The notes below the pieces were generated by a model. It saw only the letters and a list, made by a program, of their open reading frames with translations, did not search any database and was not told the origin of the DNA. Below are positions 20,501-26,439 of a stretch of 64,000 bases of DNA, piece by piece. Within the stretch, counting starts at the first letter, position 1, and each line of letters starts with the position of its first letter. Source of the stretch: Candidatus Nitrososphaera evergladensis SR1 (GTDB taxonomy: Archaea > Thermoproteota > Nitrososphaeria > Nitrososphaerales > Nitrososphaeraceae); NCBI RefSeq assembly GCF_000730285.1, contig NZ_CP007174.1, forward strand, positions 62,001-126,000. The letters run 5' to 3'. The translations under genes were made by a program, and so were the position numbers.

Positions 20501-21112
20501 ATGGTAGAGCGCCAGCAGCTAGTGAACCAGCTAAACAATGCCACTGCGGTTGTCTACAACCAGCTAGGCAGGTTGCAGATGCTGGACAAGAGGTTTGCCT
20601 CGATGGAGTCGCTGTACATGCAGCAGATAACGACGAGCATCAAGACTGGCAACAACCCGCGGGCAAGAATCCTGGCAAACGAGCTCTCAAACGTGAAAAA
20701 GCTGCGCAGGACGACGCAGCACACCGGGATGGCGCTTGAGGCGCTGGTGATACGGTTCTCGACCATGAACGAGTTTGCCATGATACTGGACACCATCGAC
20801 CCGACTGTCGACATGATAAAGGGCATCCAGGCCGAGCTCTCAAAGGCCATCCCCGCGGCAGGCGACGCGCTGTCAGAGGTCTCGTCCGTGACTGCCGACA
20901 TGCTGGCAAGCGCAAACGTGCGCGCCGCCGATGCAAAAATCTCGACGCCCATGGATGCCGACGCCCTGAGCATCCTCAACGAGATAGAGGGCGCGCTAGA
21001 GACCGAGGCAAAGGCCAAGCTTCCCGAGATACCTGCCGACATGCCAACGCACCGCCAGGAAGAGAAAGAAGAAGGAGAAAAGCAGCAACAGCAAGAAGAA
21101 GTGCTGGCATAA
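20501..21112 (+). CDS. cdvB: ESCRT-III-like cell division protein (CdvB family)
   Basis: 203 residues. The first 150 form the helical Snf7-type core (QLVNQLNNATAVVYNQLGRL; ARILANELSNVKKLRRTTQH; VIRFSTMNEFAMILDTIDPT), with the negatively charged helix LSILNEIEGALETEAKAKL near 160-178 as seen in ESCRT-III proteins. There is no winged helix of the longest CdvB type, so this is probably one of the CdvB paralogues. It would polymerise at the division site. The tail (EEKEEGEKQQQQEE) is disordered. Confidence 0.85.
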   Translation: MVERQQLVNQLNNATAVVYNQLGRLQMLDKRFASMESLYMQQITTSIKTGNNPRARILANELSNVKKLRRTTQHTGMALEALVIRFSTMNEFAMILDTIDPTVDMIKGIQAELSKAIPAAGDALSEVSSVTADMLASANVRAADAKISTPMDADALSILNEIEGALETEAKAKLPEIPADMPTHRQEEKEEGEKQQQQEEVLA

Positions 21113-21233
21113 CAACAACAAGGCTGAAAAGGTTGACCTTTTGGTCTAAAAGGCTCACGTAGAGCTAGTAGTACTGTTAGTAAAAAATATTTTACAAAGG
21201 AGTTTTAATCATTTATGTTGGTTATGAGGCGCA

Positions 21234-23396
21234 ATGGAAACGGAACCGAGTTTTGACTATTCTCAACTACAGCAAAGAGAATCACGCAAGGGAGGCGTGC
21301 TGGAATCGGCATCCAAGCGCGTCAGGATGATATTTTCAGTCATGGCAAGCCCGAACAGGATCGACATCCTCCGCATCCTGAACACAAAGGGCCCACTGAC
21401 ATATTCAGAGCTTAAAGCGCTGGCAGGTTTCAAGTCAAAAAAAGAGTCGGGCAAGTTTGCATACCACTTGAGAAAGCTGTTGAGGCAGTTGCTGGTCGCG
21501 CTGAACAAGGCCGAGCGCCGCTACACTATTACCAATCTGGGCAAGCTTGTGCTGTCTCTTGCCCGGCAGATTGAAGAGCGCTCGATAATAGAGAGCGGCA
21601 AGATGTACGTAAGGACGGGCAGGCAGACGATAGAGGAGTTCAACTCGCACAAGATAATACAGTCGCTGGTGAGGGAAGCCAACCTCCCCCTTGAGCAGGC
21701 CCACAAGATAACCGAGGAGGTCGAGAACAAGATCTACAAGTTCCAGACCGCGTACCTGACGTCGTCGCTTATCCGCGAGACTGTCAACTCTGTGCTGATA
21801 GAGCACGGCCACGAAGAATACAGAAACAAGCTTGCGCGCATTGGCCTGCCGCCGTCAGACATTTCCGAGATGCTGTCAAGCGAGGATGCCACGAGAAGCG
21901 GCGCGGCAGGCGTCATGGCAAAGACTGCCGGCTCGGTGTTTTCAGAGTACCTAATCTTTAACACGCTCCCAAAGGACATCGCCGACATGCACCTGGCCGG
22001 CGAGATACACATCGCCCAGCCCGGAGCGTGGGGCCTCCTGCCGGACACGCTGTTTGTGGACCTTTCCGACATGGAAGACGGCAGCCTGGACCTTGCCTGC
22101 AGGCATCCTGCCGTGGCAAGGTTTGCGTCGATAAAGACGGCCGACGACATGCTTGCCGCGCTTCCTGTTCTGATCGCGCTCCTTTTGAGGGAGGCCTCGG
22201 CAGAGGTTGTGCTTGAAGGAATCGCGCCGCCGCTTGCCAAGGCCAAGGATACTGATGACCTTGCAGCCAAGTTCGCCAGGGCGCTTGTGTCGTCATCTGC
22301 CGCTGCTGCCGGCGCAGGCCAGCAACAACAGCAGCCGCTTGCAACGCTGGTGGTGCCTGCCGGCGACACAGCAGCGGACGCCAAGCAGCTGAACGCGCTA
22401 CTTGACGGCTACCGCCGGTACGTCGACGCGACCCCCGTTCCCCGCGTCGGCCTTGCAATAACCCACGGGGGCAAGCTGAAGGACAGCATCGACCATATCA
22501 CGGCAGCGGTAAGGAGCGGAGGCATCATAACTATTGGAAGCAATGATAATAATAATAATACTGCCAGGTCGTCAAGCGGGATACGCAAGACGATGGCAGC
22601 GACAAACGGCAAAGGCTCCTCATCCTCTGCTGCAATGTCGCTTCAGGCGCTTTCGATAAACCTGCCCAGGCTTGCCTACGAGTCAAACAAGGACGAAACC
22701 TACTTTCGGGCAAAGCTGGCCCTTGCGATAAAGCCGTCGCTTGCGGCAATGGCAATGAGGAAAAAGGCCGTCATGGACAACGCAAGACGCGGGCTCCTCC
22801 CCGCGTTCTCTGCGGCTACTCATTCGATGCAGCATGCCACCTCAAGCATCGTCATAAACCTGACGGGTGCCCACGAATCCGTCTTTAGCATCCTTGGCCA
22901 CGATGAGGCCAACAGCGGAGTAGAGGTGATGCAGAAGGTGCTAAAGACGGCAGTAGATGTCGCCGCGGCGCAGGGCAAGCAGCTGGGCGAAGACTCTTGC
23001 GGCGTAGCGATGATAGCAGACGACTCTGGCACCCGCTTTGCCGCCCTTGACTCTGAAAAGTATGGCAAAGTCTCGCTCCTCCAGTCGCAGAACACCACCA
23101 GCTATTCCCAGGGAATGACGCTAAATGGCAAGGAGCTTGACAAAAAACAACAGCTGGCTGCCGAGTGCTCTGCCATCGACAAGATACTTAATGGCGGACT
23201 TGCGGCCACAGTGGACGTCACCGACCTTGGCGCCGGCGAAGCCAAGAGCGCAATCGAGGCTGCAGCTGCAGAGCTTGCGTTCTTCCGGCCCCGGGCCTGG
23301 CTTGCCGTATGCGCAACGTGCGGCAAAAAATACAAGATGTCTGCCGACAGGTGCGAGTCATGCAAGTCGCCGCACAGGCTGCTTACGACGGCATAG
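21234..23396 (+). CDS. Winged-helix + ATP-cone + degenerate NrdD-like protein
   Basis: 720 residues. Domain order: a winged helix at about 25-115 (SPNRIDILRILNTKGPLTYS; SGKFAYHLRKLL), an ATP-cone at 121-205 (RTGRQTIEEFNSHKIIQSLV), then about 500 residues resembling class III ribonucleotide reductase (HLAGEIHIAQPGAWGL; SLQALSINLPRLAYES), and a terminal zinc site CATC ... CESC. The glycyl-radical motif that should follow the zinc site is absent; the protein ends LLTTA. Low-complexity Gln/Asn inserts occur near 365 and 440. It lies 298 bp before nrdJ, so a nucleotide-sensing regulator is more likely than an enzyme. Confidence 0.82.
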   Translation: METEPSFDYSQLQQRESRKGGVLESASKRVRMIFSVMASPNRIDILRILNTKGPLTYSELKALAGFKSKKESGKFAYHLRKLLRQLLVALNKAERRYTITNLGKLVLSLARQIEERSIIESGKMYVRTGRQTIEEFNSHKIIQSLVREANLPLEQAHKITEEVENKIYKFQTAYLTSSLIRETVNSVLIEHGHEEYRNKLARIGLPPSDISEMLSSEDATRSGAAGVMAKTAGSVFSEYLIFNTLPKDIADMHLAGEIHIAQPGAWGLLPDTLFVDLSDMEDGSLDLACRHPAVARFASIKTADDMLAALPVLIALLLREASAEVVLEGIAPPLAKAKDTDDLAAKFARALVSSSAAAAGAGQQQQQPLATLVVPAGDTAADAKQLNALLDGYRRYVDATPVPRVGLAITHGGKLKDSIDHITAAVRSGGIITIGSNDNNNNTARSSSGIRKTMAATNGKGSSSSAAMSLQALSINLPRLAYESNKDETYFRAKLALAIKPSLAAMAMRKKAVMDNARRGLLPAFSAATHSMQHATSSIVINLTGAHESVFSILGHDEANSGVEVMQKVLKTAVDVAAAQGKQLGEDSCGVAMIADDSGTRFAALDSEKYGKVSLLQSQNTTSYSQGMTLNGKELDKKQQLAAECSAIDKILNGGLAATVDVTDLGAGEAKSAIEAAAAELAFFRPRAWLAVCATCGKKYKMSADRCESCKSPHRLLTTA

Positions 23397-23694
23397 CTGC
23401 ACAACTCCGCCCCGCCGCAGTTTGAAAAACGGCGCAGCTGCGCCGCCCGCCATATCTTTTTTTCATAATTTTATGATAGAGGCAGAGCTGGTAAACTTGT
23501 GACTCTGTCGGTATGTACGCATAGGAAAATTGCCGGAAGGTTTTGTGGATTTTCCTGAAAATATCACACGATTCTGTTTGATTTCGTTGCCGTGGCCGGG
23601 ATTAATAGTCAATTGTGCATTTTTGCTGATGTACGAGATAACACAAATAGCACAAAAGAGTATAAGTACGAGTGGTTTGGTGGTAAGAGACGGG

Positions 23695-26439
23695 ATGGCG
23701 GGAGTTACTGAATTTAATAATTCACAGGGAAACCTGATCTCGAAAATCAGAAAGCGGGACGGACGCATCGTCAGCTTTGAACAGTCCAAGATATCAAACG
23801 CAATTTACAAGGCGCTTGTGGCAACCGGAAAGCCGGACTACCCACTGGCAGAAAGGCTCGGCGTGAGGGTCTTCCAAAAGATGGCGCAGCAGGGCTATGG
23901 CTCTGAAAAGGCAGTCGCCACCGTGGAGGACGTGCAGGACATGGTCGAGTCCATACTGATAGAGGAAGGGCTGTCGGAAACGGCCAAGGCGTACATACTA
24001 TACAGGCACGAGCGCAGGAAGGTAAGGGACGAAAAGATGAAGGTCCTGAACAAGAAGGACCTCGACGAGGTCGACAAGGCCTTTGACATCAACTCGCTGC
24101 GCGTGCTTGCGGCGCGCTACCTTTTGCGCGACGAGAACAACGAGATAGTCGAGAGTCCCAAGCAGATGTTTGAAAGGGTGGCAATCCTTGTCGGAATAGC
24201 TGACGTGATGCACGACTCGCAGGTGTTCAACCTTGCAGGCGGCCACGTGCAGGACGCAGAAGAGGCTGCGAAATACTACCACAAGCTTGCAGACTTTGAC
24301 ATGAAGCTAAAGATAGGCGAATACTGGCTCAACCGCTACCACTTTGAGGCCATGGTACGCTCGTACATCCACGCCGCAAAGCAGGGCCAGATGAAGGTCA
24401 GCTTTAAAGAATTGTTAAGGCTGGTGGCAGAGGGCAAGATGGCCGCGTACAGCGACCGCATAAGGGAATACTATAACCTCATGATATCGCGCGACTTTTT
24501 GCCAAACACGCCGACGCTCATGAACGCCGGCGCAAGGCTCGGGCAGCTGTCGGCGTGCTTTGTCCTTGACATGCCCGACGACATGAACAGGATAATGAAG
24601 TCGTCGACAGACGCGGCGATGATATTCAAGTCGGGAGGCGGAGTCGGCATCAACTACTCGGACCTGAGGCCGGAGGGCGACATTGTCGCTTCGACATCTG
24701 GCGTCGCATCCGGGCCGACGTCTTTCATGAGGATAATCGACACAATCACAGATGTGGTAAAGCAGGGCGGCAAGCGCAGGGGAGCAAACATGGGCATCCT
24801 TGAGGCGTGGCACCCTGATGTTGAAAAGTTTGTCACGGCCAAGACCAAGCCGGGCGTCTTTGAGAATTTCAACGTCTCTGTCGGCATCTGGGAGGATTTC
24901 TGGAAGGCCCTTGTCAGCAAGGATGGAAACCACAAGTACACGCTGAGGAACCCGCGCACCCACGAGCCGATGAGGCAGATTGACGCGCAGCAGCTGATAG
25001 ACCTGATCGCGCTTTCCGCGTGGAAGAGCGCCGAGCCGGGAGTGATATTCTTTGACAACATCAACAAGTACAACCCGTGCATCGAAGCCAAGGGCGGGCC
25101 GCTGCGCGCCACAAACCCGTGCGGCGAGCAGTCATTATATCCATACGAGTCGTGCAACCTGGGCTCCATCAACCTTGCAAACTTTGTAAAGCGCAAGGCA
25201 GACGGGATGTATGAGTTTGACTGGCAGCGCTACGAGCAGGCAGTCAGGCTCTCCACAAGGTTCCTTGACAACATCATCGACATGAACAAGTACCCTGTCG
25301 AAGAGATAGAGACAAACACGCGCGCGACAAGGAGGATAGGCCTTGGCATCATGGGTATCGCAGACCTGCTGTTCCTTCTCCGCATCTCGTACAACTCGAA
25401 GGACGGCTATGAGTTCATGAACAAGCTTGCAGAGGCTGTTTCATACTTGAGCATGGACGAGTCTGTTGCAATCGCAAAATCGAGGGGCCCGTTCCCCATG
25501 TTCAAGGACACCGACTATGTCAAGGGCAGAATCCCAGTGGCAGGCTATTACGAGCTGCCAAAAGAGACGCACACATACGACTGGGCGACTCTCATTGAAA
25601 AGATAAAGAAGAACGGCATCCGCAACTCGTGGACGTCGACCATTGCGCCCACAGGCACGCTTTCCATGATAGCCGACACGGCAAACGGCGTCGAGCCGGT
25701 GTTTGCGCTCGTCTTTGAAAAGCGCGTGACTGTTGGCAGGTTCTTTTACACCGACAAGGTGTTTGAGAACGCGCTGAAGGAAAACGGCCTGTACTCTGAC
25801 GAGATACTGACCAAGATTGCAAACAACTATGGCTCTGTGCGCGGCATCGCTGAAATCCCGGAATGGATGCAGAGGACGTTTGTCACTGCAATCGACATCC
25901 ACTGGATGGACCACATCATGGCGCAGGCGGTGTGGCAAAAATGGATTTCCAATGCGATTGCCAAGACGATAAACATGCCCGGCGACGTGACAGCGGAGGA
26001 CGTAAAGTGCTCGTACCTGCTGTCGCACGAGCTGGGGCTAAAGGGCGTCACGGTATTCAGGGACGGCTCGCGGCAGGAGCAGGTATTGCACATCACCGGC
26101 AAGAACAATGGCGAAAAGCAGTTTACCGTCAAGCCGAGCAGGTACATCGCCGACTATATCCAGAACAACATACAGGAGCCCTACGTGCGTGAGCAGATGC
26201 TAAAGATACTGAAGGAGAAGGGAATCGATGAGGGCACTGTTCCGCAGGCAACGATGGCGACAGCTGCCGTAGCGGCGCCTGTCGTCGAAGTGCCCAAGAA
26301 GGCGACCCAGCCTGCTGCGATGCAGGTCATGTCTTCAAACGAGGACACCACGTGCCCATCGTGCAAGGCAAGGCTTGTCATCACCGAAGGGTGCAACATC
26401 TGCATCGAGTGCGGCTTTAGCAGCTGTGCATCGGGGTAA
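23695..26439 (+). CDS. nrdJ: Class II (adenosylcobalamin-dependent) ribonucleotide reductase
   Basis: Makes deoxyribonucleotides using vitamin B12. 914 residues from the ATG at 23695; the frame extends to 23530, but a TATA-like GTATAAGTA at about 23660 favours the later start. An ATP-cone is at the N terminus (KIRKRDGRIVSFEQSKISNA). The catalytic barrel shows ACFVLDMPDDMNRIMKS, the NPCGEQSLYPYESCNLGSIN active-site loop and STIAPTGTLSMIADTANGVE. The C terminus has a Cys-rich redox/zinc tail (CPSCKARL ... CNICIECGFSSC). No class I subunits are nearby. Confidence 0.95.
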   Translation: MAGVTEFNNSQGNLISKIRKRDGRIVSFEQSKISNAIYKALVATGKPDYPLAERLGVRVFQKMAQQGYGSEKAVATVEDVQDMVESILIEEGLSETAKAYILYRHERRKVRDEKMKVLNKKDLDEVDKAFDINSLRVLAARYLLRDENNEIVESPKQMFERVAILVGIADVMHDSQVFNLAGGHVQDAEEAAKYYHKLADFDMKLKIGEYWLNRYHFEAMVRSYIHAAKQGQMKVSFKELLRLVAEGKMAAYSDRIREYYNLMISRDFLPNTPTLMNAGARLGQLSACFVLDMPDDMNRIMKSSTDAAMIFKSGGGVGINYSDLRPEGDIVASTSGVASGPTSFMRIIDTITDVVKQGGKRRGANMGILEAWHPDVEKFVTAKTKPGVFENFNVSVGIWEDFWKALVSKDGNHKYTLRNPRTHEPMRQIDAQQLIDLIALSAWKSAEPGVIFFDNINKYNPCIEAKGGPLRATNPCGEQSLYPYESCNLGSINLANFVKRKADGMYEFDWQRYEQAVRLSTRFLDNIIDMNKYPVEEIETNTRATRRIGLGIMGIADLLFLLRISYNSKDGYEFMNKLAEAVSYLSMDESVAIAKSRGPFPMFKDTDYVKGRIPVAGYYELPKETHTYDWATLIEKIKKNGIRNSWTSTIAPTGTLSMIADTANGVEPVFALVFEKRVTVGRFFYTDKVFENALKENGLYSDEILTKIANNYGSVRGIAEIPEWMQRTFVTAIDIHWMDHIMAQAVWQKWISNAIAKTINMPGDVTAEDVKCSYLLSHELGLKGVTVFRDGSRQEQVLHITGKNNGEKQFTVKPSRYIADYIQNNIQEPYVREQMLKILKEKGIDEGTVPQATMATAAVAAPVVEVPKKATQPAAMQVMSSNEDTTCPSCKARLVITEGCNICIECGFSSCASG

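Follow-up and report, generated by a model that had tools for sequence, protein, structure and literature searches.

What is the gene, coding for a protein that resembles an anaerobic (class III) ribonucleotide reductase (RNR), that directly precedes nrdJ in Candidatus Nitrososphaera evergladensis SR1, an aerobic archaeon? The window, a 64,000-nucleotide stretch of contig NZ_CP007174.1, carries at this position a gene that an earlier, sequence-only reading had interpreted as a dead anaerobic reductase turned, in an aerobic lineage, into a dNTP-sensing transcription regulator parallel to NrdR. The dead body, the fused DNA-binding domain and the linkage to nrdJ stood up to further analysis; the aerobic-lineage origin did not. 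The gene and its parts are as follows.

21234..23396, plus strand: whole gene, 720 aa; winged helix, ATP-cone, inactive NrdD body and zinc ribbon (ORF, Pfam, AlphaFold2 model)
21318..21554, plus strand: winged-helix DNA-binding domain, residues 29-107 (DUF7347/HTH_20; column identity; dN/dS)
21603..21833, plus strand: ATP-cone, residues 124-200 (PF03477, 3e-11; alignment columns)
21834..23303, plus strand: NrdD-like body lacking the finger-loop cysteines, residues 201-690 (NRDD, 2e-17; Foldseek; catalytic columns)
23310..23363, plus strand: zinc ribbon C693, C696, C707, C710, equivalent to the NrdD zinc site (sequence, alignment)

Architecture and conservation of the protein

The reading frame is open throughout and its ATG start is kept in relatives. 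Pfam models recognized an ArsR-like winged helix (DUF7347, residues 33-107, 2e-10; HTH_20, residues 37-89, 2e-7), an ATP-cone (residues 124-196, 3e-11) and NRDD (residues 443-712, 2.2e-17), and models specific for NrdD scored far under cut-off (NCBIfam TIGR02487, 53.8 bits against 326). A CxxC...CxxC zinc motif occupies residues 693-710 and the chain stops 10 residues past its last cysteine; no R-x-x-G-Y glycyl-radical motif was found in the 720 residues, the C-terminus preceding the radical loop. The AlphaFold2 model, built from 58 sequences (pLDDT 85.3, pTM 0.81), retrieved class III RNRs only among its top 36 PDB matches in Foldseek, including 9dca (5e-17) and 1h79 (TM 0.67, normalized by target length). 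Both the NRDD and the ATP-cone models hit all 58 aligned members, and DUF7347 hits 56, indicating that the architecture is not due to chance. Domain models, members and structure prediction thus bear out the order of parts read from the sequence alone, including the retained terminal zinc cysteines and the end before any glycyl-radical motif.

The gene is under strong purifying selection, with whole-gene dN/dS values of 0.03-0.13 in ten close pairs. Values range from 0 to 0.05 in the winged helix and from 0.03 to 0.25 in the body, and winged helix and cone are near zero for most pairs. Mean column identity in ammonia-oxidizing archaea (AOA) likewise reaches 97% in the winged helix and 93% in the cone, both nearly invariant, and 62-74% in the main body. 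Nitrosopumilus-type regulators (five loci) carry a strongly acidic, Asp/Glu-rich N-terminal extension that is absent in Nitrososphaera. Shortened members of 535-637 aa, in which the zinc site or some of the C-terminal body is missing, occur at eleven loci; one genome (G006) has such a member plus a full-length copy.

Loss of catalysis and ancestry

Catalytic residues were compared between 39 family members and 18 true archaeal NrdDs of the same phylum. The N-terminal cysteine, both finger-loop cysteines and the radical glycine are present in all 18 NrdDs. The three cysteines, which serve as thiyl-radical and reductant residues, occur in none of the 39 family members, the finger-loop region of this alignment containing gaps, and the glycine is gone in 37; the two members that keep it are without the cysteines. 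Structural motifs (His-xx-Gly, Asn-x-Pro-Arg, Gly-xx-Glu and the zinc cysteines) are mostly retained. Among 23 AOA regulators the four zinc ligands are the only cysteines that are invariant or close to it, and two homologues have four cysteines in total. Several non-AOA members retain the enzyme's C-terminal loop, although its glycine is replaced, so that intermediate stages of the loss survive. No Gly_radical domain was detected in the genome of the window, and an NrdG-type activase (TIGR02495, the one NrdG model used) scored above cut-off in none of five AOA and in 24 of 42 genomes overall.

In the protein tree a single branch separates the regulators from the true NrdDs with support of 100/99, several long branches inside the regulators being uncertain. 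The family is one clade apart from true NrdD, and the data are consistent with a single origin, which they do not prove. Judged by these residues and this tree, the protein is a pseudoenzyme derived from NrdD and not an NrdD enzyme, in keeping with the dead body read at the outset. A class III RNR that is still active and receives its glycyl radical in trans, as YfiD supplies one for pyruvate formate-lyase, would account for the retained NrdD fold and zinc site, yet it is ruled out for practical purposes by catalytic residues and genome content: the three cysteines are missing throughout, to the point that some AOA members have zinc-ligand cysteines alone, neither a glycyl-radical domain nor an activase was found as described, and the host is aerobic.

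Distribution, gene neighbourhood and upstream regions

Of 250 genomes sampled from the phylum, 180 have a family match at E<=0.001; most of these matches are far stronger than this threshold, and some of the weakest may reflect true NrdDs or isolated cones. Within the Nitrososphaeraceae, the family of the window, the regulator is present in 65 of 70 genomes. The non-AOA members fetched measure 535-840 aa, and our guess is that many come from Bathyarchaeia-like lineages. The family is ancient and phylum-wide and not the product of an aerobic lineage, as had been supposed, since its clade spans many other lineages, several with an active-looking NrdD.

The features adjoining the gene in the window are listed here.

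21177..21210, plus strand: core promoter block of the regulator gene, TTAGTAAAAAATATTTTACAAAGGAGTTTTAATC, with an imperfect dyad GTAAA-N6-TTTAC (alignment of 30 loci)
23660..23669, plus strand: TATA-like element GTATAAGTAC of a separate nrdJ promoter (alignment; conserved in several close relatives)
23695..26439, plus strand: nrdJ, adenosylcobalamin-dependent class II RNR, 914 aa (TIGR02504, 1e-226, 754 bits)

By alignment nrdJ starts at the conserved ATGGCGGG and not at the TTG at 23530. The position of the regulator just upstream of nrdJ on the same strand, noted from the window, recurs in 68 of 68 named AOA loci with a detectable nrdJ (80 named loci were listed, all AOA-type; in the remaining 12 the contig mostly ends about 1.5 kb or less from the regulator). 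In a separate set of loci an nrdJ-type match lies beside the regulator in 33, 32 of them in the order of the window and one (G019) in another lineage. Directly upstream of the regulator, Nitrososphaeraceae carry a Snf7/CdvB-like ESCRT-III gene (20501-21112 in the window; also at loci L002 and L031), which was not seen in the Nitrosopumilales loci checked.

Other lineages show other partners. Linkage to nrdD is found independently in two families: two genomes of different genera in one family have the order regulator, glutaredoxin, true nrdD, and a further genome (G142) has the regulator followed by nrdD. The intervening glutaredoxin-like gene encodes 102 aa, which suggests an operon with a dedicated reductant. 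The pyrimidine gene pyrB/pyrI directly adjoins the regulator in 17 of 37 non-AOA loci from nine families. This linkage may in part be inherited gene order, because NAC, PUA and HflX genes recur there too; the pairs, however, are convergent in twelve cases and divergent, with a shared promoter region, in five, and such switching suggests more than descent.

Upstream regions were examined for a candidate operator. In Nitrosopumilales GATC reaches 13.8/kb upstream of the regulator and 11.9/kb between regulator and nrdJ, about five times the background of 2.3/kb measured over 201 further intergenic stretches from these loci; the loci are related, so that the counts are not independent, and the word was chosen after inspection of the data. 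It ranks first of 136 tetramers in the nrd regions, the runner-up having about one third of its enrichment. Distances between GATC copies favour multiples of approximately 10-10.25 bp (resultant 0.38; 0.35 at 10.5 bp), against at most 0.15 in 300 position shuffles. Two checks are free of this dependence between loci; they used a 20% sample of the genome of one relative and a genome pattern search as genomic background. Of the 117 intergenics in the sample, one nrd stretch has the most GATC copies and the other shares second place, the remainder of the sample holding 2.3/kb in intergenic and 2.6/kb in coding DNA. Dense GATC triplets number just 7-33 per genome, and four of five genomes have one at the regulator that lies entirely or largely outside coding sequence. 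A triplet in genome G114 was discarded as promoter evidence, since it falls within coding sequence, at the Asp/Leu-rich beginning of the regulator gene. Taken from sequence patterns, the phased arrays are a candidate operator in Nitrosopumilales, and the regulator a candidate GATC binder. Another dense array, with about 11 GATC sites (locus L221, genome G003, 981178-981330), occupies the divergent intergenic region of two genes for apparently secreted proteins, and is possibly a further target of the regulator or else unrelated.

In Nitrososphaeraceae neither GATC enrichment nor a shared operator was found, and a search for enriched tetramers to hexamers yielded weak, mostly A/T-rich words. 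The conserved upstream parts of regulator and nrdJ in this family are the core promoters alone, the block TTAGTAAAAAATATTTTACAAAGGAGTTTTAATC being conserved across it.

The fixed linkage to nrdJ could also be expected of a subunit that acts on the NrdJ protein as an allosteric or assembly partner, its winged helix making protein contacts, all the more as RNR activity is normally regulated by ATP-cones. Such a role is nevertheless unlikely, given that AOA NrdJ carries a cone of its own, that the family adjoins nrdD or pyrB in other lineages, that conservation in AOA peaks in the winged helix and that phased GATC arrays occupy upstream regions.

Proposed nucleotide sensing and mechanism, and relation to known systems

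Within the cone, V126, R127, E134, F136 and K140 are kept family-wide: of 58 members, V126 is invariant, E134 occurs in all 58 and K140 in 52, with R in the other 6. The Lys-Arg pair of NrdR (K50/R51), which touches phosphate (PMC9110341), is replaced by T128 and S/G129, mostly T and S, so that nucleotide binding in the family may be altered or absent. With this replacement a ligand may be held differently than in NrdR. Some archaeal NrdDs that appear to be active have a similar R-T-S cone, making the T/S cone probably ancestral to the regulator family. The replaced pair, along with the body as the fastest-evolving part, would also fit a protein that binds DNA but has given up nucleotide sensing, its cone and body having become a mere dimer scaffold or the sensor of another ligand. 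This reading fares slightly better than that of an NrdJ partner and is still improbable, in view of the five conserved cone residues, a cone dN/dS near zero and the nucleotide-synthesis genes that adjoin the regulator in many lineages.

The explanation that best suits the evidence is that the protein, built from an inactivated class III RNR, responds to nucleotides and regulates transcription of nrdJ and of its own gene. We regard this as probable, and infer binding of both DNA and nucleotide. In class III RNR the ATP-cones swing between positions on binding of ATP or dATP (PMC12662201). The NrdD body of the regulator would dimerize as in class III enzymes, holding a pair of winged helices against the same face of the DNA, and nucleotide in the cone, possibly also in what was once the substrate or specificity pocket, would reposition the cones and thereby the winged helices. 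The dNTP/ATP balance would in this manner set binding at the nrdJ promoter and at that of the regulator itself, repression at high dATP being the likelier sign by analogy with NrdR. Outside AOA, nrdD and pyrB are probable targets of the family. Whether much of the archaeal phylum regulates nrdJ, nrdD and pyrB through factors derived from one ancient inactivated RNR, an enzyme fold thus sensing, in a way independent of NrdR, the pool of its own product, is in our estimation evenly balanced.

The combination of winged helix, cone and dead NrdD was not found in the literature searched, which covered few subscription papers, and the family is real and conserved and apparently undescribed. Its members are at risk of being mislabelled as anaerobic reductases. 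If the proposed role is true, they represent a case of an RNR converted into a transcription factor. NrdR is described as rare in archaea (PMC9110341), and the family provides a concrete, testable candidate for the tuning of dNTP supply there. The NrdR model TIGR00244 had no match in five of five AOA, including the genome of the window, and scored above cut-off in 3 of 42 genomes overall. In three genomes of one family a true NrdR gene lies immediately upstream of nrdD, with the pseudo-NrdD regulator elsewhere, which offers a natural comparison of the two systems. The ATP-cones found in the genome of the window are those of the regulator, of NrdJ and of a 136-aa stand-alone cone protein with a basic C-terminus (L091:1686-2096; approximately 2,872,185-2,872,595); the latter was rejected as an NrdR, having no zinc ribbon.

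Among known systems, NrdR couples the state of its cone to DNA binding (PMC9110341). It shares with the regulator a DNA-binding domain joined to an ATP-cone, an RNR-adjacent gene and putative sites upstream of itself and of the RNR. NrdR, however, has an N-terminal zinc ribbon and no enzyme body, whereas the regulator has a winged helix at the front and an NrdD body with the zinc ribbon at its C-terminus; of the NrdR cone residues K50, R51, E56 and K62 it retains the E and the K, with T/S at K50/R51. Membership in NrdR is ruled out by the lack of a zinc-ribbon DNA-binding domain and of a TIGR00244 match, and most likely the regulator works like NrdR, through another DNA-binding domain, without being one. 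Class III NrdD (PF13597, TIGR02487), its best structural match, has in common with it the cone, the barrel and the C-terminal four-cysteine zinc site, but the regulator lacks the catalytic cysteines and the glycyl-radical loop, has gained a winged helix and occurs in AOA without NrdG. ArsR-type/DUF7347 archaeal regulators share the winged helix (PF12840/PF24038), to which this family adds a cone and a reductase body.
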